Made by a program: the position numbers and the translations under genes | In this document: one piece after another, positions 13-29,145 of the stretch | How positions within the stretch are numbered: position 1 is the stretch's first letter | How the letters are laid out: every line of letters begins with the position of its first letter | Assembly (NCBI RefSeq): GCF_900167465.1 | Contig: NZ_FUWR01000019.1 | Coordinates: 1 to 59,052 of the forward strand | Source of the DNA: Trichlorobacter thiogenes | GTDB taxonomy: Bacteria > Desulfobacterota > Desulfuromonadia > Geobacterales > Pseudopelobacteraceae | Length of the DNA stretch: 59,052 bases | Direction: 5' to 3' | Notes under the pieces: generated by a model | The model's database searches: none | The model's input: only the letters and a program-made list of their open reading frames with translations | Told to the model about the DNA's origin: nothing

Positions 13-73
13 CTGTAACTGATCCATTGCCAGCTTAGCGATTTCGGTCTAGAACTCCCAGAGGAGACTAGAC

Positions 74-340
74 ATGAAAACGAAGCGTTTTACAGAAGAG
101 CAAATTATCGGCATCCTGAAACAGGCCCAGGCCGGTATGAAGGTGGCTGACCTTTGCCGGATGCACGGTATCAGTGATGTAACCTTCTACAACTGGCGCA
201 GCAAATTTGGTGGCATGGAAGTCTCTGACGCCAAACGCCTGAAACAGCTTGAAGACGAGAACCGGAAACTCAAGCAGATGCTTGCTGACAGCATGCTTGA
301 GAATAAAGCCATCAAGGACGTTCTTTCAAAAAAGTGGTAA
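74..340 (+). CDS. IS3-family transposase OrfA
   Basis: This 88-residue protein is the DNA-binding half of the transposase. Residues 5-45 form a helix-turn-helix (FTEEQIIGILKQAQAG, then LCRMHGISDVTFYNWRSKFG), followed by a leucine-zipper-like stretch (KRLKQLEDENRKLKQML) that mediates oligomerisation in this family. The sequence is very close to the IS407-group consensus. An AGAGGAG ribosome site lies about 6 bases upstream of the ATG. The frame ends in TAA at 338-340, just after the slippery A6G, and overlaps orfB by 7 bases; the family makes the active OrfAB fusion by -1 slippage here. Confidence 0.93.
   Translation: MKTKRFTEEQIIGILKQAQAGMKVADLCRMHGISDVTFYNWRSKFGGMEVSDAKRLKQLEDENRKLKQMLADSMLENKAIKDVLSKKW
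328..334 (+). other. Programmed -1 frameshift site (A AAA AAG)
   Basis: AAAAAAG at the orfA/orfB junction. orfA and orfB differ by -1 frame, and this heptamer is the standard slippage signal of IS3-family elements. Role inferred from position and family knowledge. Confidence 0.8.
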
Positions 341-3115: not shown

Positions 3116-3154
3116 AAAAGCCCCTTAAAGATGACGTTGTGTTATTTTTGCGTT

Positions 3155-3184: not shown

Positions 3185-3310
3185 TATAAAAGACATAAAT
3201 GGCTGCTTTTAAGTCGGTGAATTTGGTTTTGTTAATAAGCTGTCTGGTGAAGAAAATGTGGCTTGCCTGACAAGTGACCATCAAGACTTGTCCATTTTTC
3301 TTCTTGACTG

Positions 3311-3359: not shown

Positions 3360-3369
3360 TGGGGCCGCC

Positions 3370-4025: not shown

Positions 4026-4033
4026 CACGACAT

Positions 4034-4066
4034 GACCGGTGGTATTCCTTGGGAATGCCACCGGTC
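4034..4066. other. Long hairpin between the RHH unit and rep (terminator or replication-origin candidate)
   Basis: GACCGGTGGTATTCC and GGAATGCCACCGGTC form a 15-bp stem (one G-T pair) around a 3-base loop. There is no T-tract, so it is a poor intrinsic terminator. Lying 110 bases before a rolling-circle initiator gene, it could be the double-strand origin or an assembly hairpin. Confidence 0.5.
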
Positions 4067-4176
4067 GCACACAATTTAATTTACTGCCCCGTAAGCCAGC
4101 CAATCGTCACCAAACGTAGTAAGCCAAGCCATGGGCAACTTCCACGCGCTAGAACGCGCAGAAAGGACGTTGTTGT

Positions 4177-9738: not shown

Positions 9739-10337
9739 TTGCACTGTTAACCGGTCTGATTGCCCATAAATCACCGGACCATGTCATCCTTGATGTCCAT
9801 GGGGTTGGCTATCGGGTCATGATCCCGTTTTCAACCTACTATGAGCTTCCCGAAGAGGGAACCGCCACCCTGCATATTCATACCAGTGTGCGTGAGGATG
9901 CAATTTTGCTCTATGGTTTCCGTACCCGCACAGAGAAATCCTTTTTTCAGCTGCTGATCTCGGTGTCCGGTATCGGCCCCAAGCTGGCGCGGGATATCCT
10001 CTCCAATATCCAGCCACCCCAGTTGGCTGCTGCCTTGCTGCAGGGCGATCTGCACAAGCTGTCTGCCATACCTGGCATCGGCAAGAAGACTGCTGAACGA
10101 CTGGTGCTGGAGTTAAAGGATAAGGCAGGTAAGCTGGATACCGGCAGTGTTTCGGCTGCTGATGCAGTAGGCCGTTCTTTGCCTGAAAGTTCTGTTTTAG
10201 ATGACGTCTCTTCGGCACTATTGAATCTTGGGTATAAGGATATACAGGTGAGAAAAGTGCTGGCTGAACTGGATTGTGCTGGCGGGGCTGCTGTCGAAGA
10301 GGTGTTGAAACAGGCCTTGAAGATCTTGATGAAATAA
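9735..10337 (+). CDS. ruvA: Holliday junction branch-migration protein RuvA
   Basis: A 200-residue RuvA subunit: an N-terminal OB fold ([20 protein letters not shown], then GVGYRV), two helix-hairpin-helix motifs ([13 protein letters not shown] and [19 protein letters not shown]) and a C-terminal RuvB-binding three-helix domain ([18 protein letters not shown]). It forms tetramers on four-way junctions and loads the RuvB motor. Translation is coupled to ruvC by a 4-base overlap. The operon ends here in a long hairpin and the next gene is convergent, so ruvB must be elsewhere. Confidence 0.96.
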
Positions 10338-10365
10338 GTTGGGGAGGCATTGCTGCCTCCCCAAC
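10338..10365. terminator. Bidirectional terminator between ruvA and the lipoprotein operon
   Basis: A perfect 12-bp stem GTTGGGGAGGCA/TGCCTCCCCAAC with a 4-base loop, starting right after the ruvA stop. The minus strand has TTATTT after the stem; the plus strand has only TGTTGT. Placed between convergent units. Confidence 0.7.
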
Positions 10366-10391
10366 TGTTGTCAGTAAGCTGAACCCGATTG

Positions 10392-11228
10392 CTAATCCAA
10401 CAGCATTGCGTTGACCCGGGCCCTGACTTTCATCCCTTCCTTTACCGAAGCGCCACCTTTTTCAAAATAACGCCCCGAGATGCTTCCATCCTCAATCTGT
10501 AACTCTCCCATACTGGCGAGAACCTGATTGTTTTCATCCACCACTTCAATGGCCTGCTGCTTCTTAGGCACTTTACGCAGCTTTGTCGTGTTGATCTGGA
10601 CATAGGCGATTCTGCCGTTAACCCTGCTAATACTTCCCATCTCGTAACTTGGGTTAAAGCCCATGCCCAGGCGGTCGGCTGCAGCCCGGAAACCTACCGT
10701 AACGGCCCGTTTGAAGAACTCCTGCTTCTTCTCGGCCACCATGACCTCACGTTTAGGAATCTTGGTTTCCAGCTTGCGATCATCGCTGTAGGATTTTACC
10801 AGTTCAATCTGGCCCTTGGTGTTCATGAACTTAACGTCAAGCCTGACCCTCGCCTTGAAGGTGACCTGCTTGCGGGTCGGGTCCATGTTCATGGGGGATT
10901 CAAATGCATTAAGACTCTCAATCCGCGGTTCAATGATATAGGTTTCCTGGTCCGAGGCGTTCATCAATACCTTGGTAAACCGTTTGGTGTTGGCAAGCTG
11001 GGCCTGGACATCATTCATCAGCTCATCAGTCATCTCTGATGGCAACTGGCGGCTGAACTTTGAACCAAGATCCTGTTTCAGGCCGATTGAATCAAGGTTG
11101 ACCGGTTCCAATGCCATGGTTGTTACCTGCTGCGCCTCGGTGACATAGACCGTCTGTGGGGCGGTCGCGCAGCCAAAGGGCAACAGGGCCACCAAGCAAA
11201 ACCCTGCGTAACGGAGATAGCGATTCAT
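10392..11228 (-). CDS. Lipoprotein of the FlgT/CsgG-like envelope operon
   Basis: A 278-residue lipoprotein, last gene of the long minus-strand run. The signal peptide ends in the lipobox LPFGCA (Cys 19). The first half has the alternating strand/helix pattern of CsgG/LpoB-like periplasmic domains (VQAQLANTKRFTKVLMNASD, a typical helix before a strand), and the C-terminal part reads like a beta-barrel/OB segment (ISRVNGRIAYVQINTTKLRK then GMKVRARVNAMLLD), as in the C-terminal FlgT module. An AAGGAG site precedes the ATG. No family name can be assigned with certainty; a role at the outer membrane is inferred from the lipid anchor. Confidence 0.62.
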   Translation of the reverse strand: MNRYLRYAGFCLVALLPFGCATAPQTVYVTEAQQVTTMALEPVNLDSIGLKQDLGSKFSRQLPSEMTDELMNDVQAQLANTKRFTKVLMNASDQETYIIEPRIESLNAFESPMNMDPTRKQVTFKARVRLDVKFMNTKGQIELVKSYSDDRKLETKIPKREVMVAEKKQEFFKRAVTVGFRAAADRLGMGFNPSYEMGSISRVNGRIAYVQINTTKLRKVPKKQQAIEVVDENNQVLASMGELQIEDGSISGRYFEKGGASVKEGMKVRARVNAMLLD

Positions 11229-11259
11229 GACATGCTCCTTATAAAAAACTGCGTTGATA

Positions 11260-12522
11260 TTACTTCAGTTGTTCAAGTGCAGCCAGTTGGGGCATGGCGT
11301 CGGTGGCCGGGAACATGGCTGCGATCAGTTCCATCTGCTTCGCTTCCTGATCACTGAACTCGACCGGTTCGCCAGCAAAGGCCAGCAACAGCTTTGGTTC
11401 AAGTTGCTGTAATGCTGCCTCAGCCAGCTCGATTCTAACCAGGGCCTCTTTAGTCCTTTGCTCTGCTGCTGGATTTTCATCCTTGATCTGATACTTGCCT
11501 TTTATCTGTTGGTACATGGTTTTGTAGACCGTGTACTGTAGCCCCAGGTTGTCTTTGTAGATTCCTAGCGAGTTTAGAACCATTTTAATGCGCGGGAACA
11601 GCATGGCTGCATTATACACACCACGCATTCTACGGAACTCATTCTGGATATTGGGGTATGCCCTGATGCCGTTGACAACGGCGCAGCCGATCTTCACCAT
11701 AGAGGCCATGGTGAAGTCTGCCCCAGCAACAGAGGCAGAATAGACCTTGTTGGCCAGTTTGCCATAGGTTTTCTCCATGGTGGCCATATCCTCGGTCTTT
11801 TCTTTGAGGGCGGTAGTAATGGTTTCATCCTTCAAAGCAGGATCCTTGCAGGCTGCCTTTTTAACTTCTTCTGTGCTGTTTGAGCTGGCCGTGCGCAGGA
11901 ATGCATCACACTGGGTGTAGCCATTGGCAGTCAGGTTAATCTCTTCTTCCAGCTGCAGCATCTCTTTTTTATTGTTTGCCACGACACCATAGGCCATAAG
12001 CGGGTTACGATAGACATACTCGTGGGTCGTGTCCGGTTTTTTCCTTGGCCCCAGTTCTCGATAATAGACATCACGTGGCTGAGACTTGAAAAAGGCAGTG
12101 TCTTGTCTGCTGACATGTTTATTCAACAGCTTTTCACGTTCCTTCAGGAAGATGTAGAGCGCACTGGTGGGGCGTGGCCAGCCGGTAGCCGGGTCGATCT
12201 CGGTGGCCAGGGTAATTCCTTGGGACGAGGCAAAAGCTGAAATGCCCATCTTAAAAAGGGCTCCACCTGAGGGGGCACCGTACAGGTCATTAGGCCAGCT
12301 GTCCTGTTCAGATAAAGGTGAGTTAAGTAATACTCGGTTTGATAGCTTGATTGCAATTGCTGCGGACTCAAATGAGTCAAGCGCCGCCATAACGGTCGGG
12401 TTCATGGACTCTGCCCCACACTCTAGGGCGGACATGCCGGTGGCACAACCGGATAGACTGCTGGTTGCCAGTGCCAGTAGAGCAGTCAACACCAATAATT
12501 TTATCTGTTGCAGATGCCTCAT
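11260..12522 (-). CDS. Unrecognised 420-residue lipoprotein of the operon
   Basis: The signal peptide ends in SSLSGCATG (lipobox LSGC, Cys 26), so the mature protein is probably membrane-anchored through lipid. The rest is mostly helical and charged (KEREKLLNKHVSRQ, LQLEEEINLTANG, EKTEDMATMEKTYGKLANKV), with a long C-terminal helical part (VRIELAEAALQQLEPKLLLA) and three scattered Cys (about residues 210-260) that could form a disulfide. No family is recognised. GGAGA lies 9 bases before the ATG. It sits 34 bases after the preceding gene, inside the same apparent operon. Confidence 0.6.
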   Translation of the reverse strand: MRHLQQIKLLVLTALLALATSSLSGCATGMSALECGAESMNPTVMAALDSFESAAIAIKLSNRVLLNSPLSEQDSWPNDLYGAPSGGALFKMGISAFASSQGITLATEIDPATGWPRPTSALYIFLKEREKLLNKHVSRQDTAFFKSQPRDVYYRELGPRKKPDTTHEYVYRNPLMAYGVVANNKKEMLQLEEEINLTANGYTQCDAFLRTASSNSTEEVKKAACKDPALKDETITTALKEKTEDMATMEKTYGKLANKVYSASVAGADFTMASMVKIGCAVVNGIRAYPNIQNEFRRMRGVYNAAMLFPRIKMVLNSLGIYKDNLGLQYTVYKTMYQQIKGKYQIKDENPAAEQRTKEALVRIELAEAALQQLEPKLLLAFAGEPVEFSDQEAKQMELIAAMFPATDAMPQLAALEQLK

Positions 12523-12556
12523 ATAAAAGTCTCCAAAATAGGTTTGTGTGGGGTGT

Positions 12557-13681
12557 TTACTTGAATACGACCTTGTTGCCCTGAATTTCAGGGTTCCAGC
12601 GCTTCAATTGAGCATCTTTTTCAAAATTATCGATTAGCAGGTCAACCAGATCACTGATCTTACCAGCATAGTAGAGGTCTACAACCATATCGCCTTTGCC
12701 ACGGTTTTTCTGGCTGACGTTTTTCAGGCCCTTGATATCCTCACCCAGCATCTTAAGCAGTTTGCGTTCCAACTTGTAGTTACCTGAAGTGGGCATAACC
12801 ACTTCAAAACGGGCACCACGGCGTTCCTGGGTCAGGGTTTTGGTGTTAAGGGCATTAACCACTTCACTGGCGAATTTTTTACCGCCCGCAATGGCAGCCA
12901 ACCGGATGGCTGCTTTTGCTTCGTCTTTAGAGGCACGTGCTGCGCCGTCAGGGTTGCCTTCCCACATCAGGTCACGGCTGGTCAGGCTGACGGTCTTGCC
13001 GGTCATCATGGCGCGGTAAACATAGGCAGAACCACTGGGGGCAACGCTGACATCCACCTTGCCCAGAACCAGCCATTCGCCTTTGTCTGCCAACTGGTCA
13101 GCAATCTTGTTCATATGCTTGACCATCTTATTGTAGTCAGCTTCTTCAGTCAGGGCTTGGTGCACTGCTTCATCGTCAGAGTCGATTACGGTGTACTCGG
13201 CAGCGGTCAGGCTGCGGCGTACTTCAGCACGGACGTTGTCCAGGATCATCGGCGCATCACCGGTATCCATCTTGCCGGGGATGATCATGACTACGATCCG
13301 ACGCTCTTCATTTTTACCGGTGACGGCACCCTGGCGTTTCAGGTAGGCCCGTACCGCTTCTTCGTTAATAGTGATTCTGATCTTGGCCTTCAGCTCCTTG
13401 CCAAACATGCCGCTGACGCTGCTGTCAAGGATTTCAAGGTCTTTGATGTACTTTTCGTCACCGGTCAGGTTCAGGGTTGAAGCCCGATCCGGGTAGACAT
13501 CACGCAGGTAATGTTCCAAGGCCTGCTCACGGCCACGCTGTTCTGCTTTTTTGCGGGCAGTGTACTCATCATCATCCACCTTAACGGTGACTATTTCTGT
13601 GTAGGTGCGCACTTCGGCAGCAGCCAGAAGCGGCAGCAATACCAGCCCCAGGGTAATCATAATCAACAAAATACGTTTCAT
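12557..13681 (-). CDS. Secreted FlgT/CsgG-like protein, divergent fourth member
   Basis: A 374-residue protein with a cleavable signal peptide (cut after about LLAAAEV). It shows the same order as its neighbours: an N-terminal repeat-type domain (KKAEQRGREQALEHYLRDVY, like the FlgT-N/LPP20 helix), a central CsgG/TolB-N-like domain (VVMIIPGKM, VIDSDDEAVHQAL, LVLGKVDVSV, EAKAAIRLAAIAGGKKFASE) and a C-terminal alpha/beta module (RFEVVMPTSGNYKLERKLL). It lacks the S-T-W-K ending of the three paralogues upstream. AGGAGG is 8 bases before the ATG. Periplasmic location is inferred from the signal peptide; function is unknown. Confidence 0.62.
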   Translation of the reverse strand: MKRILLIMITLGLVLLPLLAAAEVRTYTEIVTVKVDDDEYTARKKAEQRGREQALEHYLRDVYPDRASTLNLTGDEKYIKDLEILDSSVSGMFGKELKAKIRITINEEAVRAYLKRQGAVTGKNEERRIVVMIIPGKMDTGDAPMILDNVRAEVRRSLTAAEYTVIDSDDEAVHQALTEEADYNKMVKHMNKIADQLADKGEWLVLGKVDVSVAPSGSAYVYRAMMTGKTVSLTSRDLMWEGNPDGAARASKDEAKAAIRLAAIAGGKKFASEVVNALNTKTLTQERRGARFEVVMPTSGNYKLERKLLKMLGEDIKGLKNVSQKNRGKGDMVVDLYYAGKISDLVDLLIDNFEKDAQLKRWNPEIQGNKVVFK

Positions 13682-13713
13682 GGATAAATCCTCCTATGGG
13701 AAATTAGATAGCG

Positions 13714-14844
13714 TTACTGGCGTTTCCAGGTGCTGCGGGCGCCTTCAGAACGGATTAGCTTCAGCGTCCAGCCCAGTTGTTTGCCGGTTTTGTTGATGGC
13801 GCTCTTGACTGCCTCTGAGCTGCTGCCGGACTTGATTTCCAAGGTGGTTTTACCACCACCTGACTCCCGCTCACGAATGTTTTCCATACCGGGGACTACC
13901 TTAAGGGCATCTTTGAAGCTGGCCACGTCGTCAACTTCAGCAACACCATCCAGAACGATAATAAAGGTGCCTGCTCCTGATTTTTCACGCTTCCAGCTCT
14001 TCTTGATGGAATCGATCATAACGTTTGATATCTTGTGTCCCACATCTTTTGCAGAGCGGTACAGTGCTTCCTGCAGGGTACCGGCATGGGAGGACGATTC
14101 AACATCTTTGCTGGCAACCACCCGTGAGGTGCTGGGATTGATCAGTTGGGCCCGCAGGAAGATCTTGGCGGCCCCGCCGGTGTAGTTCCAGTACCCTTGG
14201 CGACCAACACCTACTGTCTGGTAATAGAGCACCAGATCGGCATGGTATTTCAGGCCGTACAGGGCTGCTTTGTTGGTGTCGAGGTCCATCTCGTGGGTCT
14301 CGGCTACTTGCACAGAGAACTTCTGGGCAGAGGCCTTGTCAATCACATCAAAGCCTTTGTCGGCCAGTACTTCAACAATCGCCCCGTAGGAATTATCAAA
14401 AAAAGCTTCCAGGTCGGCGCGGGTACTGCCCAGTGTGGCCCCTTGGGGCAGATTGGGGTTGTAGAGTACCATGATGCGGGGGTTACCCATGGCATCCTGC
14501 ATCAGTCCCAAAGCGTTAATCTCATTCTCAAGCGCCTTCAGGTTTACGTCTGCGGTCAGTTGCAGTTCGTATCCTGCGCCGGTGAATTCAGGCTCCCCTT
14601 TTTGCACCAGCCGGGCCAGTTTTCTGGTCTTGCCTTTCAGGGCGCCAGCGATTTTTTGCTTGTTCTTCTTGACGGTATCCTCGTCCAGAATCTGTTTTAC
14701 TGCCATGTCAATGGCACTGTTCAGGCCGTTTACTACTGCAGCCTCTTCAGACATACCCCGTCCGGTTGCGGTAAATTGATCTGCACCAGCAAGGCTGCTC
14801 AGTGCCAGAAGGGCGGTCAGTGCAAGTATAATGATCCTTTTCAT
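13714..14844 (-). CDS. Secreted FlgT/CsgG-like paralogue 3
   Basis: A 376-residue exported protein with signal peptide ending near SSLAGADQ. Residues 20-120 resemble the FlgT-N/LPP20 module (ATGRGMSEEAAVVNGLNSAI). The middle is a CsgG/TolB-N-like domain: PRIMVLYNPN, GAIVEVLADKGFDVIDKASA, THEMDLDTNKAALYGLKYHA. The end carries SGGGKTTLEIKS and the terminal signature EGARSTWKRQ. The two genes upstream share these blocks, so the three arose by tandem duplication. It lies 9 bases downstream of paralogue 2, with GGGGAGA before the ATG. Exact function is unknown. Confidence 0.66.
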   Translation of the reverse strand: MKRIIILALTALLALSSLAGADQFTATGRGMSEEAAVVNGLNSAIDMAVKQILDEDTVKKNKQKIAGALKGKTRKLARLVQKGEPEFTGAGYELQLTADVNLKALENEINALGLMQDAMGNPRIMVLYNPNLPQGATLGSTRADLEAFFDNSYGAIVEVLADKGFDVIDKASAQKFSVQVAETHEMDLDTNKAALYGLKYHADLVLYYQTVGVGRQGYWNYTGGAAKIFLRAQLINPSTSRVVASKDVESSSHAGTLQEALYRSAKDVGHKISNVMIDSIKKSWKREKSGAGTFIIVLDGVAEVDDVASFKDALKVVPGMENIRERESGGGKTTLEIKSGSSSEAVKSAINKTGKQLGWTLKLIRSEGARSTWKRQ

Positions 14845-14853
14845 GATCTCCCC

Positions 14854-15963
14854 CTACTGCTTTTTCCAGGTGCTTCTGGCGCCTTCGGCACGGATCTTTT
14901 TCATGGTCCAGCCCAGTTCTTTAGCAACACGGATCACGTCGCGGTCAAGCTGGTCGCGCTTGCCTTTGTAGGTGGCTTCAAAGGTGGTCTTGCCACCACC
15001 GGACTCAACCTCTTTGGCACCGGTTGCCAGGGGGAACTTCTCAAACATCTCGGTGAATTTGGCGATCTGCTCAGGGTCATCAACGCCATCAATAATAATG
15101 GTGTACATGGCACCGTTCTGCTGCTGATCCATCCAGTGTTTTTGCAGTACGTCAATCATCGGATTGACAATCTTCTTGCCACCTTCGCGGGCTGCCTTTT
15201 CAAGGGCCTGCTCTACGGTCTGCCCCATGCCGGCCTGCTCAACCTTTTTGCTGGTGATAACCTGTGAACGGGTGTTGTCAATCAGTTGGGTTTTAACATT
15301 TACCAGTACACTCTTGCCGATTGCGCCTTCGCGGACAACACCACTGACATTGTAAAAGAGGGTGTATTCGGCATGGAATTTGAGACCATAGGCGGCTGCC
15401 TTGTTGAGATCCACATCAATCTCGTGGGTTTCTGCCTGCTGCATGGAAAAACGCTCGGCAGAAGCCTTGTCAACCACCCGGAACTGCTTGTCAGTCAGGG
15501 ATTCAACAATGCCGTTATAGATCTCTTCGGTAAACTCCTTGTCCTTGAAGATCTTGTCCTTGGATTTGTTGCTGAAGGCCACCAGGATACGTGGGTTACC
15601 CACCACGGCGTTTTTGCGCAGGATGGTCAGGGCATCAATGTCGCCTTTGATCAGCTTGTTATCAACATTGGCGGTGATGGTGATAACAACACCATCAGCA
15701 TTTTTCTCTTCTTTGATGATCTTGTAGCTGGTGACATAGCCTTTACTGTGGGAAAGGATCTTGTCATCAATCAGGGCTGAGTCAACTACCGTACTCTCTG
15801 ATTTAACAAAGGTGCCGACCCCTTGCTCAACTGCACGACGCATGGCTGTTGCCAATGCCACATCCTTGGCCGGGCCTTCTCCAGTGGCGGTTACTGTTGC
15901 AGCAAATGCCGCGCTTACGCTGATAAGCATCAATCCAAGTGCCAATACCAGAATTCGTTTCAT
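14854..15963 (-). CDS. Secreted FlgT/CsgG-like paralogue 2
   Basis: A 369-residue exported protein. I use ATG 15963 because AGGAGGAA lies about 7 bases upstream and it yields a clean signal peptide (MKRILVLALGLMLISVSAAF); a longer in-frame reading would overlap the previous gene. Modules: FlgT-N/LPP20-like (ATGEGPAKDVALATAMRRAV, residues about 24-120), CsgG/TolB-N-like (PRILVAFSNK, FRVVDKASAERFSMQQAETH, LNKAAAYGLKFHAEYTLFY) and a C-terminal module (ESGGGKTTFEATYKGKRDQL, ending EGARSTWKKQ). It is close to paralogue 3 over its full length. Thirteen bases separate it from paralogue 1. Confidence 0.68.
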   Translation of the reverse strand: MKRILVLALGLMLISVSAAFAATVTATGEGPAKDVALATAMRRAVEQGVGTFVKSESTVVDSALIDDKILSHSKGYVTSYKIIKEEKNADGVVITITANVDNKLIKGDIDALTILRKNAVVGNPRILVAFSNKSKDKIFKDKEFTEEIYNGIVESLTDKQFRVVDKASAERFSMQQAETHEIDVDLNKAAAYGLKFHAEYTLFYNVSGVVREGAIGKSVLVNVKTQLIDNTRSQVITSKKVEQAGMGQTVEQALEKAAREGGKKIVNPMIDVLQKHWMDQQQNGAMYTIIIDGVDDPEQIAKFTEMFEKFPLATGAKEVESGGGKTTFEATYKGKRDQLDRDVIRVAKELGWTMKKIRAEGARSTWKKQ

Positions 15964-15976
15964 ACGTGAGTTCCTC

Positions 15977-16795
15977 CTATTTGATTTTCCAAGTGCTGCG
16001 GTTACCTTCTGATCTGATTTTCTGAAGCTGTATTTTCTGTTGGGAGGCAAGTTTGAGTAGCTCCCGTTCAATCTGGTCACGTCTTGATTTGCATATAATT
16101 TCTAACGTAGCCTTGCCGCCTCCTGCCTCAACTTCTTTTACTGCAGCGACAAGTGCACTTTTTTCCAGCAGCAGGACAAGGCGTTCAGTCAGTGCTTCGC
16201 GCCCCTCAAACACCATGGTGACCGTGCGTCCTTCGTTGCCACTCTGGATAACGTGTTGTTCCAAACCTTTGCATAGAAGTTCAGTCAGTTTTTTGCCGGC
16301 GCTTCTGGCTGCCTTGTCAATGGCGTCCTCGGTTGTGTGCCCACCTGATGATGCCTCAGCCAGCTTGGCGGCAATAATGCGAGCACCGGTATTGTCAACA
16401 ATCTTGGCGCTGACCCTTACCAGAGCGCCGATCCCTTTTTCCGGGTCCTTTACAATGGTGGAGGTTTTAAAATGGATAGTGTATTCAGCCAAAAAGGTAA
16501 GGCCATAGGAGGCGGCCTTGTTCAGGACCGGGTCAATCTCATGGGTTGCCGCAATCTGTATGGCAGCCTTTTCTGCTGCTGCCCGATCAACGACCCGGTA
16601 GCCGCGGTCAGTCAGATATTCCACCATGCTGTCGTAGATTCCAGCCTGTGCAGCCAGTTCTTTTTCTGAGGTGGCGCCACCTACGGCTCGAATCAGCAGC
16701 AAACGCTCACCGTCGGCAGGCTTAGGTCCGGTTGCCGCAATTACTGCAGTAAGCATTAAAGAAAAGCAGAAAAGGGTTAACAAGATCAAACGCAC
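15977..16795 (-). CDS. Secreted FlgT/CsgG-like paralogue 1 (short form without the N-terminal module)
   Basis: About 272 residues from GTG 16795, which has AAAGGA 8 bases upstream and gives a proper signal peptide (VRLILLTLFCFSLMLTAVIA). An in-frame ATG at 16861 would add 22 residues and overlap the TPM gene by 7 bases. The FlgT-N/LPP20 module of the two following paralogues is missing; the protein begins directly with the central domain (YRVVDRAAAEKAAIQIAATH, LNKAASYGLTFLAEYTIHF) and keeps the C-terminal module (EAGGGKATLEIICKSRRDQI, ending EGNRSTWKIK). Whether it works alone or with the longer paralogues is unknown. Confidence 0.65.
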   Translation of the reverse strand: MRLILLTLFCFSLMLTAVIAATGPKPADGERLLLIRAVGGATSEKELAAQAGIYDSMVEYLTDRGYRVVDRAAAEKAAIQIAATHEIDPVLNKAASYGLTFLAEYTIHFKTSTIVKDPEKGIGALVRVSAKIVDNTGARIIAAKLAEASSGGHTTEDAIDKAARSAGKKLTELLCKGLEQHVIQSGNEGRTVTMVFEGREALTERLVLLLEKSALVAAVKEVEAGGGKATLEIICKSRRDQIERELLKLASQQKIQLQKIRSEGNRSTWKIK

Positions 16796-16854
16796 AATTT
16801 TGGTCCTTTGCTTGGAATAGCGGTCAGCATACCAGAAAATTTCGGCAGTGCAAA

Positions 16855-17763
16855 TTACCAATCATCAGAGGAACCACCGCCATCAAAGTCCCCGCCACCA
16901 CCTGAGAAGCTGTCGTCACTTGATGATGAACCGCCACCGCCGCCACCGTAGAAAATGGTTGGTCCACCCCAGCCCCCGCCGTGTCCGCCTCCACTGCCCC
17001 CACTGGCATTGAAGAGGCGCATGAGCAGGCTGATCAGGAGTCCGGCTGCTCCACCGAGGAGTGCCAGAATGCCAAGTTTCCAGAGTACTGCACCCAGTCC
17101 AATACCGGCAGCAACTGGCAGACTCACACCGCCTGCCAGGACACCGGCAGTGCGGGACGATGATCCTGCAACAGCGGTGATAACCAAGCCAGCTAGTAAC
17201 AGAATGATAAAGAGACCAGAGCCACTGCCTTTTTTCTTTTTGGCTACTTTTTTGTCAGCTGCAGTCGCTTTAAACTCACCCTTGGTAGCATCAATAATTG
17301 CCCCTAGTCCTGCGCTGACAGCCTGATCCGGGTTTCCGGCGCGAAGGCCAGGAGCGATCACATTGCGGATAATCTGACCGGCAGTTATGTCAGGTAGGAC
17401 ACCCTGTAGTCCGGTACCCACCTCAATTCTGATCTTGCGCTCCTTCTTGGCCAGAATCAAAATGACGCCGTTGCTTTTATCTTTTTGACCGATCTTCCAG
17501 GCCTCGGCTACCCGTATCGCAAAACTTTCAATAACATCGCCCTCCAGTGAGGGAACCGTCAGTAGCACGACCTGATTGGTGGTTTCCCGTTCAAAGGCGG
17601 CCAGCTTTTGTTCCAGGGCCTGGACGGCTGCAGGCGACAACATCCCGGCATAGTCATTGATTCTACCTTTAAGATGCGGCGCATCAAGGGCAAAAACGGT
17701 CTGCGTCAGGCATGTCAGCATGACGACAAGCAGTAGTAGTGGTTTGAATATGTTAAAACGCAT
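16855..17763 (-). CDS. TPM-domain membrane protein (YgcG-like)
   Basis: A 302-residue protein: signal peptide (cleaved near VFALDAP), a TPM domain (LKGRINDYAGMLSPAAVQAL, then NQVVLLTVPSLEG, KSNGVILILAKKERKIRIEV, LPDITAGQIIRN; residues about 30-160), a basic linker (KKVAKKKKGS), one or two membrane segments (LFIILLLAGLVITAVA; LGAVLWKLGILALLGGAAGL) and a Gly/Ser-rich tail (FYGGGGGGSSSSDD, end GGGGDFDGGGSSDDW). TPM proteins have been linked to photosystem II repair in plants and to phosphatase-like folds, and in bacteria they commonly accompany LemA, as here 21 bases downstream of it. The bacterial function is not settled. Confidence 0.85.
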   Translation of the reverse strand: MRFNIFKPLLLLVVMLTCLTQTVFALDAPHLKGRINDYAGMLSPAAVQALEQKLAAFERETTNQVVLLTVPSLEGDVIESFAIRVAEAWKIGQKDKSNGVILILAKKERKIRIEVGTGLQGVLPDITAGQIIRNVIAPGLRAGNPDQAVSAGLGAIIDATKGEFKATAADKKVAKKKKGSGSGLFIILLLAGLVITAVAGSSSRTAGVLAGGVSLPVAAGIGLGAVLWKLGILALLGGAAGLLISLLMRLFNASGGSGGGHGGGWGGPTIFYGGGGGGSSSSDDSFSGGGGDFDGGGSSDDW

Positions 17764-17784
17764 ACAGACCTCGTATCTGTCCGG

Positions 17785-18369
17785 TTAAAATTTTACTTTG
17801 GGCGCTACCTTGGCACCTTCTTCAGCTTTAAAGGGTTCTTTGCGCTTCAGGTGTAAAAGCATTGAGTTGGTCATGCTGTTGGGAAAGGTTCTAATGCTGG
17901 TGTTGAACAGTTGAACGGTTTTGTTGTAGCGCTCACGGGCTACATTGATCCGGTTTTCAGTTCCTTCCAGCTGTTTTTGGAGGTCAAGAAAGTTCTGATT
18001 TGCCTTCAGGTCCGGGTATTTCTCTGCCACCACCATCAGACGGGAGAGGGCAGAGGAAAGTTCACCTTGATTCTGTTGAAATTTAGTCAGGGCTGCAGGG
18101 TCATTGATGACCTCTTTACTCAACTGCATGCTGCCCACTTTTGCCCGGGCTTCTGTCACGGCTTTGAGAGTATCTGCCTCATGTTTTGCGTAACCTTTGA
18201 CAACTTCCACCAGATTGGGAATCAGGTCGTTCCGGCGCTGGTAGGAGGATTCAACATTACCCCAGGCAGCGATTACCGCTTCTTCATTGGCCTGCATGGT
18301 GTTGTAACCGCAGCCCGAAAGTGTGGAGATAAGTAACAGTCCAAGCAGATAGATTGAAATCCGTTTCAT
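17785..18369 (-). CDS. lemA: LemA family protein
   Basis: A 194-residue LemA protein. It has a lipobox-like N-terminus (LLISTLSGCGYN, Cys 20) and the typical long helical hairpin (AWGNVESSYQRRNDLIPNLV, EVVKGYAKHEADTLKAVTEA, and NRINVARERYNKTVQLFNTS). LemA proteins are membrane-anchored helical bundles of unknown biochemical role. The start overlaps the SemiSWEET gene by 4 bases and the TPM gene follows after 21 bases, the common lemA-TPM pair. Carrying a lipid anchor instead of a plain transmembrane helix is a common variant in Gram-negative bacteria. Confidence 0.9.
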   Translation of the reverse strand: MKRISIYLLGLLLISTLSGCGYNTMQANEEAVIAAWGNVESSYQRRNDLIPNLVEVVKGYAKHEADTLKAVTEARAKVGSMQLSKEVINDPAALTKFQQNQGELSSALSRLMVVAEKYPDLKANQNFLDLQKQLEGTENRINVARERYNKTVQLFNTSIRTFPNSMTNSMLLHLKRKEPFKAEEGAKVAPKVKF

Positions 18370-18653
18370 GCTGGTGCCTCCTCGTTGTGTTCAGTACCGT
18401 TGTCAGAAAACTTCAACTTCATAATTGTTAACAGCAGGTTGCAGACCAGAGGGGTGATATTGGCCAGAATCAAGGGCATATCACCAATCAGAATACCGTA
18501 GATCAGCCACAATGCAACACCGGCAGATAAAAGAACAGGTTGCCAGATGGATAGATCGCGGGCATGGCGGCTTTTCCAGGTTTTAAAAACCTGTGGTAAT
18601 GAGGCAATACTGGTCAGCAGCCCGGCAATCAGGCCGATCAGGGTGGGGGTCAT
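18366..18653 (-). CDS. SemiSWEET-type three-helix transporter
   Basis: A 95-residue membrane protein with three predicted helices (LIGLIAGLLTSIASLPQVFK, LLSAGVALWLIYGILIG, ILANITPLVCNLLLTIMKLK) and the PQ motif at SLPQVFKTW. This is the bacterial SemiSWEET form, which dimerises to make a sugar uniporter; related PQ-loop proteins carry other small solutes, so the substrate is open. It overlaps trmJ by 4 bases and lemA by 4 bases, so its translation is tightly coupled to both. Confidence 0.85.
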   Translation of the reverse strand: MTPTLIGLIAGLLTSIASLPQVFKTWKSRHARDLSIWQPVLLSAGVALWLIYGILIGDMPLILANITPLVCNLLLTIMKLKFSDNGTEHNEEAPA

Positions 18654-19387
18654 GTGGATTTTTTCCGGTCGCTAAAGTCACCTGCCGCCCAGTCGATCTG
18701 GGATAACATGCCACGCAGGATGGCAACTTCACGGCTGTCAAGCCCGGCTCTGAAGAACACCCGGCGCAGAGAGCGCATAATGTGGTCAGGGTTTTGGGGG
18801 TTCAGGTGTCCAATCCGTAGCAAGGTGCTTTCCATATGGGAAAAAAGTGGTTCAAGTTCACCGGATGGAGCCAGCGTGCGCTGTGCCGCGTCTGTCTCCG
18901 CCGCCGCCGCATTAAACAGCTCATAGCAAAAAATTAGAGTGGCCTGGGCGAGATTAAGTGAGCCATACTCGGAGCTTGAGGGGATGGTCGCCTGCAGGGT
19001 GCAGAGGGAGAGCTCGGCCGTGGAAAGTCCGTGGTCTTCACGGCCCAGTACCAGAGCTGCCTGGCCTGGCGCTTGTAATAACGCTTGTGCAGCTTGCGGG
19101 GGACTGAGCAGTTCCTGGCGGTATTTGCCGCTACGCCGTGTGGTCGCTACCGACACGCTGATATCTGCCAGGGCGTCAGACAGGGAATCAAACAGTTCGG
19201 CCTGTTCCAGCAGATCTTTGGCTGAGACAGCGAATTTGAATGCTTCAGGATGAAGGTGTTCACAGCCTGCGACTAGACGCAGACGTGAAAGCCCCATGTT
19301 TTTCATGGCGCGACAGACCATACCAATGTTGCCCGGTGATTGTGGTCCCACCAGAATGACGCTGACTGCATGTAGAGAACGCTGCAT
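18650..19387 (-). CDS. trmJ: tRNA (cytidine/uridine-2'-O-)-methyltransferase TrmJ
   Basis: A 245-residue SPOUT methyltransferase that 2'-O-methylates position 32 of the tRNA anticodon loop. Motifs of the trefoil-knot fold are VILVGPQSPGNIGMVCRAMK (near the N-terminus), ALVLGREDHGLS and IPSSSEYGSLNLAQA. I use ATG 19387; an in-frame TTG further upstream would add 14 residues and overlap the preceding gene. The C-terminal helical extension (LRIGHLNPQNPDHIMRSLRR) is typical of TrmJ. It is followed by a SemiSWEET gene with a 4-base overlap, an unusual partner for a tRNA enzyme. Confidence 0.88.
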   Translation of the reverse strand: MQRSLHAVSVILVGPQSPGNIGMVCRAMKNMGLSRLRLVAGCEHLHPEAFKFAVSAKDLLEQAELFDSLSDALADISVSVATTRRSGKYRQELLSPPQAAQALLQAPGQAALVLGREDHGLSTAELSLCTLQATIPSSSEYGSLNLAQATLIFCYELFNAAAAETDAAQRTLAPSGELEPLFSHMESTLLRIGHLNPQNPDHIMRSLRRVFFRAGLDSREVAILRGMLSQIDWAAGDFSDRKKST

Positions 19388-19406
19388 AGAAGTTATTGTG
19401 TCTCGG

Positions 19407-20477
19407 CTAGACGGACAGGCGTCCGGCAATTTCAGAGCGCATCAGGTCAACCATTTCTTCAATTTTGGCTTCGGGATCGATGTCAGGAGCCTGTGCTGCC
19501 ATGGCGGCCAGAAAGGCGATGACCTTCTGACTGTCAAGTAGTGCTGATTTGCCCCCAATCAGGTCAATCAGGGCATCAACCAGATCAGCGCCCAGACGAC
19601 CCAGATAGGCCTTGGCAATCTCCTGCAGGTCATCAATTATTTCTGTCAGCTGGGCGTCATGGTCTGCACCCACTTCGGTCTGTAGTGATGTTTCAGGCGT
19701 TTCAGGCGCTGGTGGAGCTGTAGGTGTCGGCGGAACTGCAGGTGTCGGTGAAGCTGCAGGAGTCGGTGAAGCTGCAGGAGTCGGTGAAGCTGCAGGAGTC
19801 GGTGAAATTGCAGGGGGCTGGCTGACCGTGTGACGACTGAGTGAGGCCTGCCAGAGCCGATCAATATTCAGGGTTTCCAGAAAATTATGGTGTATCAGCT
19901 CTTCGGCAGGTGGTGTGCTGCGTATTTCAATGCTGGCGTCAGGCAGTGCTGCGACCCGTTCTGATTCAGTCGGAGATGTTTCGACCTCCTTGGCCGCGTC
20001 GTGGTAAAAGCCGATTGGTGACCCTTCCTTATAAAATATCATGGCACTGCGTTCAGGCGTTGAGAAAAGAACCGTTCCGTTTAATGCTTGAAACTTCATC
20101 TGATTCAAAACGGTCTTAAGATCCAGATTACTGACCTGCTCCGGTTTGAATATCACTGTGCCATGTAGCAGGGCCTGGGTGCAGACCGCAAGATCAGCGG
20201 TCATTCGGTAGACGTTTATGACTCCCCCCTCAAGGAGCGTGTGGCTGAAAAGGCTGGTAAACGCCTCAAAACCGCTTTTTCGGCTGGTTCCTTCAAGCAT
20301 GAGGGCACTGATCAGGGAGCCTTTAATAAATATAAAGTATCCTTCAGAACTGTTTGAACCGTAGCCGAGATACCCTGTAAAGCCGCCTGCGCCCATTTTT
20401 TTCATGGCATCAGGCAGATTGACTTTTTGAACAGGGAGGTTTTCGTAGAGCGGGTTGGAACGTGGCAAGATCAACAT
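19407..20477 (-). CDS. DUF4388-like sensor/output protein with a Pro-Thr-Ala repeat linker
   Basis: A 356-residue cytoplasmic protein starting at ATG 20477. Residues 1-200 have the beta-rich pattern GGFTGYLGYGSNSSEGYFIF...GSLISALM, followed by a second module (LNGTVLFSTPERSAMIFYKE), resembling the DUF4388/PATAN-like domains common in Geobacter signalling. A linker of repeated S-P-T-P-A-A follows, then a C-terminal helical domain (LTEIIDDLQEIAKAYLGRLG...VDLMRSEIAGRL). The N-terminal 210 residues are paralogous to the gene at 22606-23283. First gene of the minus-strand run and divergent from a TPR gene. Function is unknown. Confidence 0.6.
   Translation of the reverse strand: MLILPRSNPLYENLPVQKVNLPDAMKKMGAGGFTGYLGYGSNSSEGYFIFIKGSLISALMLEGTSRKSGFEAFTSLFSHTLLEGGVINVYRMTADLAVCTQALLHGTVIFKPEQVSNLDLKTVLNQMKFQALNGTVLFSTPERSAMIFYKEGSPIGFYHDAAKEVETSPTESERVAALPDASIEIRSTPPAEELIHHNFLETLNIDRLWQASLSRHTVSQPPAISPTPAASPTPAASPTPAASPTPAVPPTPTAPPAPETPETSLQTEVGADHDAQLTEIIDDLQEIAKAYLGRLGADLVDALIDLIGGKSALLDSQKVIAFLAAMAAQAPDIDPEAKIEEMVDLMRSEIAGRLSV
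19705..19812. repeat. 18-bp tandem repeat encoding S-P-T-P-A-A
   Basis: Six consecutive 18-base units; the last four differ at only a few bases (GGAGTCGGTGAAGCTGCA type), the first two are more diverged. The phase of 18 keeps the reading frame, so copy-number change would alter only linker length in the DUF4388-like protein. Confidence 0.85.
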
Positions 20478-22605: not shown

Positions 22606-23283
22606 TCAGGCGTTTCCAAGGTTGTTTTGGTAGCGGTTGACCGCTGTTTTCCAGACGCTGCCAATATTAATAATGTCCAGTAGATCGTGTGTCATCAGTT
22701 CATCTGCACTGACGGTGGAGTACATATCAAGTTTAGCCGCAGGGTCTTGGGTAAGTTGTTGAGAGTCTCCCGGTGACATCTCGATTTCCTGAGAGCCATC
22801 ATGGAAAAAGCCCAGTGGGTCCCCTTCCTTGTAAAAGATCATGGCAGAGCGTTCCTGGGTATAAATACGCAGACAGCAGTTCATCTGCTCATTTTTGACC
22901 CGTTCAAGCAGTGCCTTGATATCAATCAGTGTAAGGTCTTGGGCGCGATAGCGTGCCTCTCCATGTAACAGGGCATGAATACACATGGTCAGGTCACTGG
23001 AGAGGCGGTAGACGTTCAGTGTACTGCCGGTGCTACCCAGCATTTTCTCTGCCAGTGCGCTCATTCCTTCAAAGTCAATCAGGTGACAACCTTTGTCATT
23101 TTCAAAAATAACACTGATCAGTTTGCCTGACTCAAATACCAGAATGCCGACTGCGTCAGAAAAGGTCAGGCTGGCATACCCGGTAAAGCAGCCGTGGGCA
23201 AGCTTGGTGACAACCGCATCAAGCTGCAGTTCTGAGGCATCAAGGTTTTCAAAAAGGGGGGTGCCTTTCGGGAGACGAAGCAT
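22606..23283 (-). CDS. DUF4388-like protein, paralogue of 19407-20477
   Basis: A 225-residue protein closely similar to the first 210 residues of the gene at 19407-20477: LPKGTPLFENL versus LPRSNPLYENL, FTGYASLTFSDAVGILVFES versus FTGYLGYGSNSSEGYFIFIK, and the shared ERSAMIFYKEG and AxELxxHxxLxxxNIxxxW. It lacks the proline repeat and the C-terminal helical domain. AGGAGGA is 8 bases before the ATG. No enzymatic motif is visible; probably a ligand- or protein-binding domain. Together with its paralogue it brackets the TPR gene. Confidence 0.6.
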   Translation of the reverse strand: MLRLPKGTPLFENLDASELQLDAVVTKLAHGCFTGYASLTFSDAVGILVFESGKLISVIFENDKGCHLIDFEGMSALAEKMLGSTGSTLNVYRLSSDLTMCIHALLHGEARYRAQDLTLIDIKALLERVKNEQMNCCLRIYTQERSAMIFYKEGDPLGFFHDGSQEIEMSPGDSQQLTQDPAAKLDMYSTVSADELMTHDLLDIINIGSVWKTAVNRYQNNLGNA

Positions 23284-26922: not shown

Positions 26923-26979
26923 GATAAACACGGTGTTTCGTCCGTAGCTGAAAATTATTGGTCAACTCGGAGGTTGTCT

Positions 26980-28188
26980 ATGAATCGGATCTGGTTGTTT
27001 TTGTTGCTGATTGTGGCTGTACTGGCAGGAGGATGTGCCAAGCAGGTCGCCCGCTGCACTGCACCGGAGGATAATCCTGCTCATCATTACCTGCGTGGCA
27101 TGGAGGCGCTTGAGTCTGGCAAGATTGATCTGGCTCAGGATAAATTTGATCGTGCGCTCTACTGTGAAGAGAATTTTTCAGCTGCCTACGGTGGTAAGGC
27201 GATTGTTGCTGCCTTAAAAGCAAAAGGAATGGCTGATGCCGGGTATCGCGGCATTGAAATAGCTCGCGCAGAAGAGTATCTGGAGAAAGCAAAAAAACTG
27301 GTTGAAACCGATAATGACCGTTTTGAATACCAGCTGGCTGTTTTACGGGTTGCCCCTGCAATAAAAGGGAAAGACTGGTTGGATCGTGCAGAATCCGCCT
27401 ACCGTGCTGCCCAGTCGCTGGAGAGGGTTGATGAACGACGTCTTGACTACTATCAGGGCAAAGAGGCTGCTGCTTACTTCATGGGACTGGCCTATCTTGA
27501 AGGCTATCAGTTTCGCAAGGCTGAGGACAAGTTCCGTGAAACTCTGGACAGCCGCAAAATGGGCAAGTGGAATGAACCAGCTGACAAGGCCTGGAAGAAG
27601 ACTTCCAAAATTGTACGTGCCATGGGCGGCATCACGGTAGGCGATGTGGGCAAAAAGATTGCGGTAAAAGACACAGTGTCACGGGGTGATCTGGCAGCCC
27701 TGCTGGTTGATGAGATGATGATTGATAAGCTGTTTGCTGGCCGGATTCCTGTTAAATCGCAGCTGGCTGCCATGAAAGCAGAGTTTGTGCCTGCCGATCT
27801 GCTTTCGCATCAATTCCGGGAAGAGGTTGATGTTATTATGAAGTGGAAAGTGCGCGGTCTTGAGCCTAAATTTGACCAGACCACCAAGGCCTATCTCTTT
27901 AAACCTGAAGACAAGGTACAGCGGGGGGAAATGGCGTTTATTCTGGAAGATGTCCTGATCAAGCTGACCGGTGACGAAAAGATTGCCACTGCCTACTTCG
28001 GTCAGGAACGGTCTCCTTTCCCGGATGTCAAGACCACCTCTCCTTACTATAATGCCGTCATGAACATGACCAGTCGCGGGATTATGGAAGGTGAGCTGTC
28101 TGGTGAGTTCCGCTTCAATGAACCGGTGGATGGAGCTGAGGCGATCCTTGCCATTCGTATGTTGCAACAAAAAATCAACATCTATTAA
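26980..28188 (+). CDS. TPR and SLH-domain lipoprotein
   Basis: A 402-residue envelope lipoprotein. ATG 26980 follows CGGAGG by 7 bases; the lipobox is LAGGCAK (Cys about 19). Residues 35-215 form TPR-like helices (HHYLRGMEALESGKIDLAQD; YFMGLAYLEGYQFRKAEDKF). The C-terminal half holds S-layer-homology-type segments (ISVGDVGKKI-like region; LFKPEDKVQRGEMAFILEDV; FPDVKTTSPYYNAVMNMTSR, GEFRFNEPVDGAEAILAIRM). In Geobacter, SLH lipoproteins tether to the cell wall or outer envelope. The next gene follows after 48 bases without a terminator, so the two probably work together. Confidence 0.78.
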   Translation: MNRIWLFLLLIVAVLAGGCAKQVARCTAPEDNPAHHYLRGMEALESGKIDLAQDKFDRALYCEENFSAAYGGKAIVAALKAKGMADAGYRGIEIARAEEYLEKAKKLVETDNDRFEYQLAVLRVAPAIKGKDWLDRAESAYRAAQSLERVDERRLDYYQGKEAAAYFMGLAYLEGYQFRKAEDKFRETLDSRKMGKWNEPADKAWKKTSKIVRAMGGITVGDVGKKIAVKDTVSRGDLAALLVDEMMIDKLFAGRIPVKSQLAAMKAEFVPADLLSHQFREEVDVIMKWKVRGLEPKFDQTTKAYLFKPEDKVQRGEMAFILEDVLIKLTGDEKIATAYFGQERSPFPDVKTTSPYYNAVMNMTSRGIMEGELSGEFRFNEPVDGAEAILAIRMLQQKINIY

Positions 28189-28236: not shown

Positions 28237-29145
28237 ATGAAAAAAAGTATCATACTGGCAGCAGTAGCCCTGATGGGATGTGCAGGACTGGCCCAGGCAG
28301 ATGAGGTGGATCTGAGGCATTACAAGATCGCCCGTGAGTACATCAAAAAAGAAAAGGTTACCGTAACCGTTACCGTTGAACAGGCGTTCAAGCAGGATGC
28401 CATTCTGGTGGTAGGGGAAGGCGTTCCCAAAAAAGGGACCACCGGTGGTCAAAAGCGGTTGACTGCCCTCCGGGCTGCAGAGGTATCTGCCCAGCGTGCC
28501 TTGGCAGAGCTGCTGAAAGGTGTCTCCATTACCGGTCAAACCACCGTGCGGGATGCAGAACTTGAGTCAGATGTGATCAAGTCATCAGTCAATGCCTTTA
28601 TCAAAGGCTTCCAGCCGGTGGTTAAGGATTGGAACGCAGAAGAAGAGACCGCTCTGGTTATTTTGAAGGTGGGGATGAACGGCCCACGCAGCTTTGGCGC
28701 CATGATGTATGAGAAGATCCTGACCGAGCCAAAGATCAAGCAGCAGATTGAGCAGCCTGCCTATGTACCTCCTACTGAACAGTTTACACCGCCTCCGGTT
28801 GCCCGGCCCTATGATGGTCTGATCATTGATGCCACCGCCTACACCTTCCGTCCGGCCCTTATTAACCGGATCTTTAACCCCAAGGGTGAGGTGCTGTATG
28901 ACCCGGCCAAGATCAGCCAGAAGGTGCTGGTTGAGCAAGGCTGCGGCGAGTACACCAACAGTGTTGACAAGGCCCGTGCTGCCCTGCGCAAGCGCGGCGT
29001 CAATAATCCTCTGGTGGTGGCAGCCTCCGGTACGGTCAGCCCTTCTGACCTGCAGGTTTCAGGTGATGTTGCCCTGCAGATCTTCAGCGCCAACCAGAAT
29101 AACGGCTTTATGGCTGATGCGCGGGTTGCCTTTGTGCTGAAGTAA
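28237..29145 (+). CDS. LPP20-family secreted protein
   Basis: A 302-residue exported protein with signal peptide cut near LAQADEV. The first half is an LPP20-type domain: ILVVGEGVPKKG, then KRLTALRAAEVSAQRALAEL (the characteristic Ala-rich helix), SVNAFIKGFQPVVKDWNAEE and TALVILKVGMNG. A proline-rich linker leads to a second alpha/beta part (DGLIIDATAYTFRPALINRI...VNNPLVVAASGTV). LPP20 domains are related to the FlgT N-terminal module, also seen in the operon at 12557-15963. AAGGAGGAAGG precedes the ATG. It is followed by a clear terminator. Function in the envelope is unknown. Confidence 0.78.
   Translation: MKKSIILAAVALMGCAGLAQADEVDLRHYKIAREYIKKEKVTVTVTVEQAFKQDAILVVGEGVPKKGTTGGQKRLTALRAAEVSAQRALAELLKGVSITGQTTVRDAELESDVIKSSVNAFIKGFQPVVKDWNAEEETALVILKVGMNGPRSFGAMMYEKILTEPKIKQQIEQPAYVPPTEQFTPPPVARPYDGLIIDATAYTFRPALINRIFNPKGEVLYDPAKISQKVLVEQGCGEYTNSVDKARAALRKRGVNNPLVVAASGTVSPSDLQVSGDVALQIFSANQNNGFMADARVAFVLK

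Follow-up and report, generated by a model that had tools for sequence, protein, structure and literature searches.

Does an uninterrupted run of eleven minus-strand genes, found at positions 10392-20477 of a 59,052-nucleotide stretch of the Trichlorobacter thiogenes genome (contig NZ_FUWR01000019.1; henceforth the window), form a single envelope operon, and what might its products build? An initial annotation, made from the sequence alone, had read the run as one operon linking a DUF4388-like gene, trmJ, SemiSWEET, lemA and a TPM gene to four exported proteins of one architecture and two lipoproteins, together suggestive of a hetero-oligomeric envelope complex. Checking the gene positions confirmed the run itself, with intergenic distances of 19, -4, -4, 21, 59, 13, 9, 32, 34 and 31 bases (range -4 to 59). 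Judged by comparison of loci, it is composed of a separable five-gene head and a six-gene module, which we will refer to as A-B-C-D-L1-L2 (Table 1). Gene order, homology, the predicted folds of B and L2, and co-occurrence across genomes are directly established, and we tentatively read the module as encoding a ring-like scaffold of a non-flagellar envelope system.

Conservation of a six-gene module

We compared 27 loci bearing the marker gene D (i.e., the window, L085-L105, L107, L108, L110, L140 and L141). The order B-(C)-D was found in 26 of them (in L110 the contig ends inside D), and L1 and L2 came after D in 24; of the rest, L100 breaks off inside L1, while L104 and L105 are without L1-L2, with L2 absent genome-wide from their genomes (G109 and G110). 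C was present in 18/27 and A in 16/27 loci, counts in which L110 could be judged for neither gene and L100 and L141 not safely for A, and in which A and B of L107 are fragmented. By contrast, lemA-TPM lay just upstream of the module in 13 loci (window included), was missing there in 11 (L085, L091-L094, L102-L105, L108 and L140) and could not be judged in L100, L110 and L141, where contigs end. The surroundings of the module were unlike those of the window in L085, L092, L102, L103, L108 and L140. Because lemA-TPM is missing upstream in eleven loci and the surroundings differ in six, the lower six genes can be regarded as the conserved unit; trmJ, SemiSWEET, lemA and TPM are, as far as gene order can tell, its neighbours and not its parts. 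The operon order that had been expected to recur in relatives does so for these six genes, which keep their neighbourhood and are not scattered singly, but not for the head.

D was detected in 25 and L2 in 24 of the 141 genomes of the order. Within the window's own genus D was found in 14 out of 15 genomes, and in a sample spread evenly over the phylum in 4 out of 395. A scan of named-species genomes returned 23 loci, a number bounded by the peptide patterns used. Locus labels were mostly Geobacter, Geobacteraceae and Trichlorobacter, with four Deltaproteobacteria or Desulfuromonadaceae. B-D-L1-L2 was also found in L141 (labelled Syntrophaceae) and its near relative L140 (labelled delta proteobacterium, a metagenome-assembled genome (MAG) of unstated family); all six loci with such non-Geobacter labels come from MAGs, in which mis-binning is possible.

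Two loci have further genes close by. In L085 a Zot-like gene (filamentous-phage type, by eye) occupies 5126-6511, just upstream of the relocated module, and in L098 SemiSWEET and lemA are separated by a gene resembling FecR (by eye) and one for a sensor histidine kinase (CHASE2 by eye), at 1241-5357.

Three exported paralogues and a remote relative

The motif blocks that had been noted as common to A, B and C are present as quoted and far above chance: with B as the query, a search of its own genome recovered C at E 7.2e-68 and A at E 3.9e-51. A quick maximum-likelihood tree of 54 A/B/C proteins, to which 10 FlgT_N-type outgroup rows were added, recovered each of the three paralogues (A, B and C) as a single group (Shimodaira-Hasegawa-like approximate likelihood-ratio test, SH-aLRT, support of 100, 83 and 100, respectively). 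By this tree the three paralogues appear as separate lineages; A and C have clearly been kept apart across genera, and B probably so. The order of their duplication is unsure, as the program warns of long branches meeting between A, C and the outgroup. The copy of B in L121 (a Trichlorobacter sp. MAG) is 98 percent identical to that of the window.

The single architecture ascribed to the four exported proteins holds for B, C and D, but not for A, which is shortened and lacks the N-terminal domain (its start is probably the GTG at 16795 rather than the TTG at 16861). D lacks the motif blocks, yet is a remote, nearly full-length homologue of the others: the D family aligned to the A/B/C family in hhalign at E 1.3e-9 (probability 96, 317 columns), and thinner alignments gave E 3.8e-4 (probability 36). 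None of the four exported proteins shows a lipobox pattern. DUF5048 matched 5/18 rows of the D family (best E 0.0017), and the single matches of B (0.35) and D (0.42) in profile searches of PDB sequences (E up to 1) were set aside as chance.

Predicted folds and lipoproteins

Structures were predicted for B and L2 and compared with Foldseek and with VIA, whose tables cover only folds already found by Foldseek, meaning that absence from them carries no meaning. The B model (predicted local distance difference test score, pLDDT, 80.5; predicted template modelling score, pTM, 0.58) comprised N, middle and C domains. Its top Foldseek rows were an LPHT-ring chain (8z5n_0, E 1.9e-10) and FlgT (3w1e, E 1.2e-9), with PelC, CsgG and LpoB lower. 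Specifically, B matched the N and middle fold of FlgT (3w1e, VIA Z 13.3, residues 20..280, 218 aligned) at a root-mean-square deviation (rmsd) of 10.8, which indicates that the domains agree while their mutual placing does not. For the middle domain, VIA returned a tie between 8z5n_0 (Z 12.6, rmsd 2.5, 144 aligned), PelC (12.4, 2.6, 126) and TolB (12.3, 2.8, 124), with CsgG also among the matches. Residues 285-368 form a predicted beta-alpha-beta-beta-alpha-beta C domain, which lies outside the 3w1e match and most others.

The L2 model (pLDDT 78.9) had the same two top Foldseek rows (8z5n_0, 5.5e-9; 3w1e, 1.3e-8), and VIA aligned both over 34..272 (Z 10.1, rmsd 10.4, 209 aligned and Z 9.6, rmsd 9.8, 208 aligned, respectively). 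These models and fold searches bear out the FlgT/CsgG-type folds proposed from the sequence, and FlgT-like domains seem, on the models, to be divided between B (N and middle) and L2 (middle and C-terminal).

Both L1 and L2 are predicted lipoproteins, as first suggested, although the run holds three in total, the lemA product (LSGC) being another. The lipobox of L2 is atypical and was missed by the lipobox pattern, while its Gly-Cys is invariant in 19 rows. Cys 205 and Cys 225 of L1 are invariant in 19 aligned rows, those of L140 and L141 included, and a low-complexity insertion of roughly 100 residues was seen in the middle of L1 in L127, L128, L129 and L132, three of which are without A. Searches of PDB and Pfam sequences returned nothing convincing for L1. 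We dismissed as chance two PDB matches of L1 (0.42 and 0.8, to designed helical proteins; L2 had none, in profile searches at E up to 1) and the Pfam matches of the L1 and L2 families (TACC_C and DUF6482 in 2/19 rows each, LptE and others in 1/19 each). Likewise, hhalign matches of L1 to L2 (E 3.3e-4, 43 columns) and to f18, a gene described below (E 3.5e-4, 46 columns), were discarded as they fall near the N-termini, where signal sequences lie.

Table 1 Features of the window discussed in the text, with positions counted from its first base.
Feature	Position	Strand	Description
Head (DUF4388-like, trmJ, SemiSWEET, lemA, TPM)	16855..20477	-	separable; outside the six-gene module
Promoter-like motif TTGCAC-N16-TATGCT	16826..16853	-	gap between TPM and A, 30 bases before the GTG of A
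A	15977..16795	-	exported, 272 aa; middle (TolB_N/CsgG-like) and C-terminal domain only; paralogue of B and C
B	14854..15963	-	exported, 369 aa; FlgT_N-like, TolB_N/CsgG/LpoB-like and C-terminal domains; candidate core subunit
C	13714..14844	-	exported, 376 aa; full-length alignment to paralogue B
D	12557..13681	-	exported, 374 aa; remote homologue of B; module marker
L1	11260..12522	-	predicted lipoprotein (LSGC, +2 Ala), 420 aa; no known family
L2	10392..11228	-	predicted lipoprotein (PFGC, +2 Ala), 278 aa; model like FlgT middle and C-terminal domains
Terminator-like hairpin, 13 pairs	10337..10366	-	after L2; abuts the end of convergent ruvA
f18	26974..28188	+	predicted lipoprotein (AGGC), one SLH domain; candidate distant member of the same system
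f19	28237..29145	+	exported, 302 aa, short FlgT_N-like stretch; candidate distant member of the same system

A second gene neighbourhood that co-occurs with the module

Elsewhere in the window, f18 and f19 belong to a neighbourhood found in Geobacterales that includes genes for a transglutaminase-like protein, FecR, a CHASE2 cyclase and FlgT-like proteins. In some genomes this neighbourhood adjoins the module: L103 has FecR, f18, f19 and the transglutaminase-like gene followed by the module (by neighbour clustering), and L104 has a CHASE2 gene and FecR before B-D with f18, f19 and the transglutaminase after it (domains assigned by clustering). We took 31 loci around strong f19 matches, drawn from the 53 genomes in which f19 scored E<=1e-40. 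In these loci f18 lay no more than 10 kb from f19 in 25 cases, the transglutaminase in 19, FecR in 13, CHASE2 in 10 and FlgT_N-type relatives in 13, the last count being biased since many loci were chosen for a FlgT-like match on the same contig.

Across the order, f19 (E<=1e-40) was present in 23/25 genomes with D and in 30/116 without it (Fisher test, p 6.8e-10; shared ancestry is ignored here and in the tests below); within the family minus the own genus the figures were 11/11 and 13/50 (p 6e-6). The transglutaminase occurred in 20/25 D genomes (p 1.9e-8; 3.5e-4 for the family minus the own genus), and at least one of the two in 24/25 (p 3.4e-11). The two genes were themselves associated, as f19 was found in 42 of 43 genomes with the transglutaminase (E<=1e-60) versus 11 of the 98 others. 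At a looser threshold f19 was broader than D, reaching 81/395 genomes in the phylum (E<=0.001, many of them weak).

In the own genus these genes are dispersed, with some 16 kb between f19 and D in G000, G126 and G130 and the transglutaminase on another contig or far off. An apparent lack of the transglutaminase from the own genus was overturned by a search that found a divergent copy, which adjoins guaA on another contig of G000 (guaA/guaB by eye). Taken together, the co-occurrence, the dispersal here and the linkage elsewhere offer the best hint, at the level of gene content, of a shared function.

Directly after f19, at 29232-30835 (+), lie ECF (extracytoplasmic function) sigma factor-like and anti-sigma factor-like genes (by eye), a possible f18-f19 regulator. 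Genome G110 holds two B copies: that of L105 stands with D beside DUF4384 and a ShlB-type pore, and that of L106 stands, without D, beside CHASE2, DUF1425, FecR, f18 and f19.

Sites and genes flanking the module

The promoter-like motif before A, which directly follows the TPM stop codon, was sought as TTGCA[CT]-N16/17-TAT[GT]CT in 505,687 bases (window, L085-L111, L140 and L141), giving 14 matches. Six precede A (window, L087, L091, L094, L095 and L097), i.e., 6/16 A-bearing loci, the other ten being without the strict form; the remaining eight, all within SemiSWEET genes, we did not take for promoters. Since L091 and L094 carry the motif yet are without lemA-TPM, it appears to go with A. Conservation is what supports this motif, as its first hexamer agrees with TTGACA at 3/6 places, and a sigma-70 scan, which did no better than chance (8 sites versus 7.4 expected), did not list it. 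The hairpin after L2 is likewise weak, with 12 such sites found versus 12.0 expected.

In the head, the TrmJ-family and SemiSWEET proteins scored above NCBIfam cut-offs and LemA and TPM above Pfam cut-offs, whereas DUF4388 in the first gene of the run was a sub-threshold hint (E 0.014, 15.9 bits versus a cut-off of 25). Two related DUF4388-like genes, at 22606-23283 (-) and 19407-20477 (-), lie either side of a TPR gene at 20693-22516.

Proposed role and alternative explanations

The reading that we favour, with confidence that falls somewhat short of even, is that the module encodes a scaffold like the H ring, hetero-oligomeric and anchored in the outer membrane, that belongs to a non-flagellar envelope system; a hetero-oligomeric complex, its localisation, assembly, stoichiometry and cargo are what we infer. 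Under this proposal the four exported proteins (A-D) would end up free in the periplasm, and L1 and L2, once lipidated, would go to the outer membrane because they lack Asp at +2. B and C, and D by homology, would each supply three domains, namely a FlgT_N-like one, a TolB_N/CsgG-type middle one and a small alpha/beta one at the C terminus, and L2 a FlgT-like middle and C-terminal domain. Co-assembly via the middle domains, as in PelC, CsgG and TraT, could then yield a periplasmic ring or scaffold resembling the H ring of Vibrio, in which B-D-L1-L2 would be the usual core and A and C specialised extra subunits. Such a ring may work for a structure of the envelope or cell surface other than the flagellum. 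Candidates for the remaining parts, encoded elsewhere in the genome or in relatives, are f18, f19, the transglutaminase-like protein and, for some genomes, FecR and the CHASE2 cyclase. The fuller proposal, namely an unrecorded non-flagellar H-ring-like machine of Geobacterales and a few relatives made of B, D (A and C in some), L1 and L2, together with the SLH lipoprotein, f19 and the transglutaminase-like protein and in some cases under FecR/CHASE2-cyclase control, is a possibility that we put forward as unlikely in its entirety.

Several observations weigh against the scaffold proposal. At the sequence level, B matched FlgT_N (PF16548) at E 0.0061 and 17.5 bits (Pfam cut-off 28.8) and LpoB (PF13036) at 20.0 bits (cut-off 22.3), both below threshold; FlgT_N was matched at E<=0.01 by 11/33 rows of the A/B/C family (best 1.3e-7), six of the 33 being A proteins without the N domain; D was weakly related to the FlgT_N-type relatives (hhalign E 0.0043, probability 8); and L2 had no hhalign profile relation to B, D or those relatives. 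At the structural level, VIA placed CsgG first for L2 (Z 11.9, rmsd 3.3, 139 aligned), with others also above 8z5n_0 and 3w1e; the matches span several domains and give low TM (template modelling) scores over the whole chain (0.27-0.38); and many lipoproteins that do other things (LptE, PqiC, HpaA) share the middle fold. As for the wider system, shared ancestry is left out of account by the Fisher tests, 30 genomes have f19 but no D, four own-genus genomes (L206-L209) have f19 without transglutaminase, FecR or CHASE2 in the stretch taken (three also without f18), and the own-genome transglutaminase is only 44 percent identical to the L103 copy.

An unlikely, though not negligible, explanation is that the module forms a collar or channel for outer-membrane export of a polysaccharide, adhesin or amyloid in the manner of CsgG and PelC. 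The match of the middle domain to PelC, CsgG and TraT is what one would expect from such a collar, CsgG-like genes lie within 10 kb of f19 in 2/31 and 3/31 loci (two queries), and a ShlB-type two-partner secretion pore stands near B-D in L105. However, none of the nine scanned window proteins (A-D, L1 and L2 among them) matched CsgG (PF03783) at E up to 1, with the four places matched genome-wide all outside the window, and we recognised neither a beta-barrel nor a synthase or amyloid subunit among the module proteins, of which B and L2 were modelled, nor any conserved cargo gene.

We regard as improbable the idea that the module senses or regulates the state of the cell wall or envelope, with LpoB-like middle domains touching the peptidoglycan machinery and the SLH protein f18, FecR and CHASE2 relaying the signal. 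LpoB was the commonest Pfam match of the A/B/C family (15/33 rows at E<=0.01, best 3e-6), and the SLH domain of f18 and the FecR and CHASE2 genes near f19 (13/31 and 10/31 loci) would suit this role, as would a FecR and CHASE2-kinase operon of Burkholderia contaminans, with a DUF4136 gene, that the part of PMC5192318 considered here links to biofilm. Against this, LpoB carries a lipobox and B does not, neither FecR nor CHASE2 stands near f19 in L206-L209, and no partner penicillin-binding protein was identified, although no search was aimed at one.

More doubtful still is an accessory flagellar-motor ring, analogous to the H ring and encoded apart from the flagellar genes. FlgT and the LPHT ring were the top Foldseek rows, and FlgH is present in 23/25 D genomes, the two exceptions being only 53 and 76 percent complete. 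Yet FlgH, which we used to test the flagellar link, is not specific to the module: it was found in 114/141 genomes of the order, 91 of them without D. Of the 23 genomes with both FlgH and D, 21 have them on separate contigs, and in the finished genomes G125 and G126 some 2.2 Mb lies between them; in some genomes B-D instead adjoins FecR, CHASE2 and transglutaminase genes. Judged by FlgH, with other flagellar genes checked by eye in gene lists, the module does not lie among flagellar genes, and no curli or flagellar gene was recognised among the eleven genes of the run, in line with the initial annotation. Finally, a single functional operon of eleven genes, with trmJ, SemiSWEET, lemA and TPM in the same machine, is very improbable, since its short gaps and the upstream lemA-TPM of 13 loci are set against the 11 loci without this pair and a promoter-like motif between TPM and A that recurs in two of them.

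Comparison with known systems

The module resembles several known systems in part. We found no description of it in the titles and abstracts listed by searches of the open-access literature on FlgT, CsgG, LpoB, LPP20, LipL46, FecR, CHASE2, Trichlorobacter and Geobacter. The BiofilmReg operon of Burkholderia contaminans shares with the neighbourhood of f19 a FecR gene adjoining a CHASE2 sensor and, in some cases, a small DUF4136 gene, but its sensor is a histidine kinase as opposed to the cyclase of L106, and a FlgT-like protein is not mentioned in the portion of PMC5192318 consulted. Residues 31-172 of B match Leptospira LipL46 (NF033164; E 3.1e-6), although at 26.1 bits versus a cut-off of 400, and LipL46 is termed a lipoprotein. 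LpoB (PF13036) matches the middle domain at a weak to sub-threshold level and differs from B, which has no lipid anchor. The predicted middle domain also has the fold of PelC, CsgG, TraT and TolB_N proteins; the module is set apart from these by the lack of a CsgG family match and of a known cargo, and by its extra N and C domains. CsgG is a nonamer. PDB entry titles give PelC as a dodecamer and TraT as a decamer.

Closest in sequence are Geobacterales FlgT_N-type proteins encoded beside CsgG genes (own genome, contig 31, L112), which the A/B/C profile matched nearly over its full length and into the C-terminal domain (hhalign E 5e-20, 314 columns). They form a separate tree group and have CsgG-domain partners in the own genome, not D-L1-L2. 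At L112 (8742-12708), the FlgT_N-type protein adjoins two CsgG-domain proteins. Given the nearly full-length match, the A/B/C family is, by profile comparison, a new branch of a broader FlgT-like family.

FlgT-type folds are chiefly familiar from flagellar rings, and the cell envelope of Geobacter-related bacteria matters for respiring outside electron acceptors. If the proposed scaffold is real, the FlgT architecture would not be bound to flagella; a conserved non-flagellar set with FlgT domains on separate proteins would show the reuse of such rings, give partners to the D, L1, L2 and f19 families (all without a convincing Pfam match here) and supply a set of genes that can be tested in Geobacter-related bacteria.

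In Vibrio, tomography suggests that the H ring is formed by FlgT, FlgO and FlgP (as given in the part of PMC7693769 consulted). The module resembles this ring in that the B model has its N and middle fold, the L2 model its middle and C fold, and exported proteins adjoin predicted outer-membrane lipoproteins. It differs from Vibrio FlgT in the predicted beta-alpha-beta-beta-alpha-beta C domain of B, in that FlgH was never nearby in the genomes checked, and in spreading FlgT-like domains over several proteins, with three paralogues and D.

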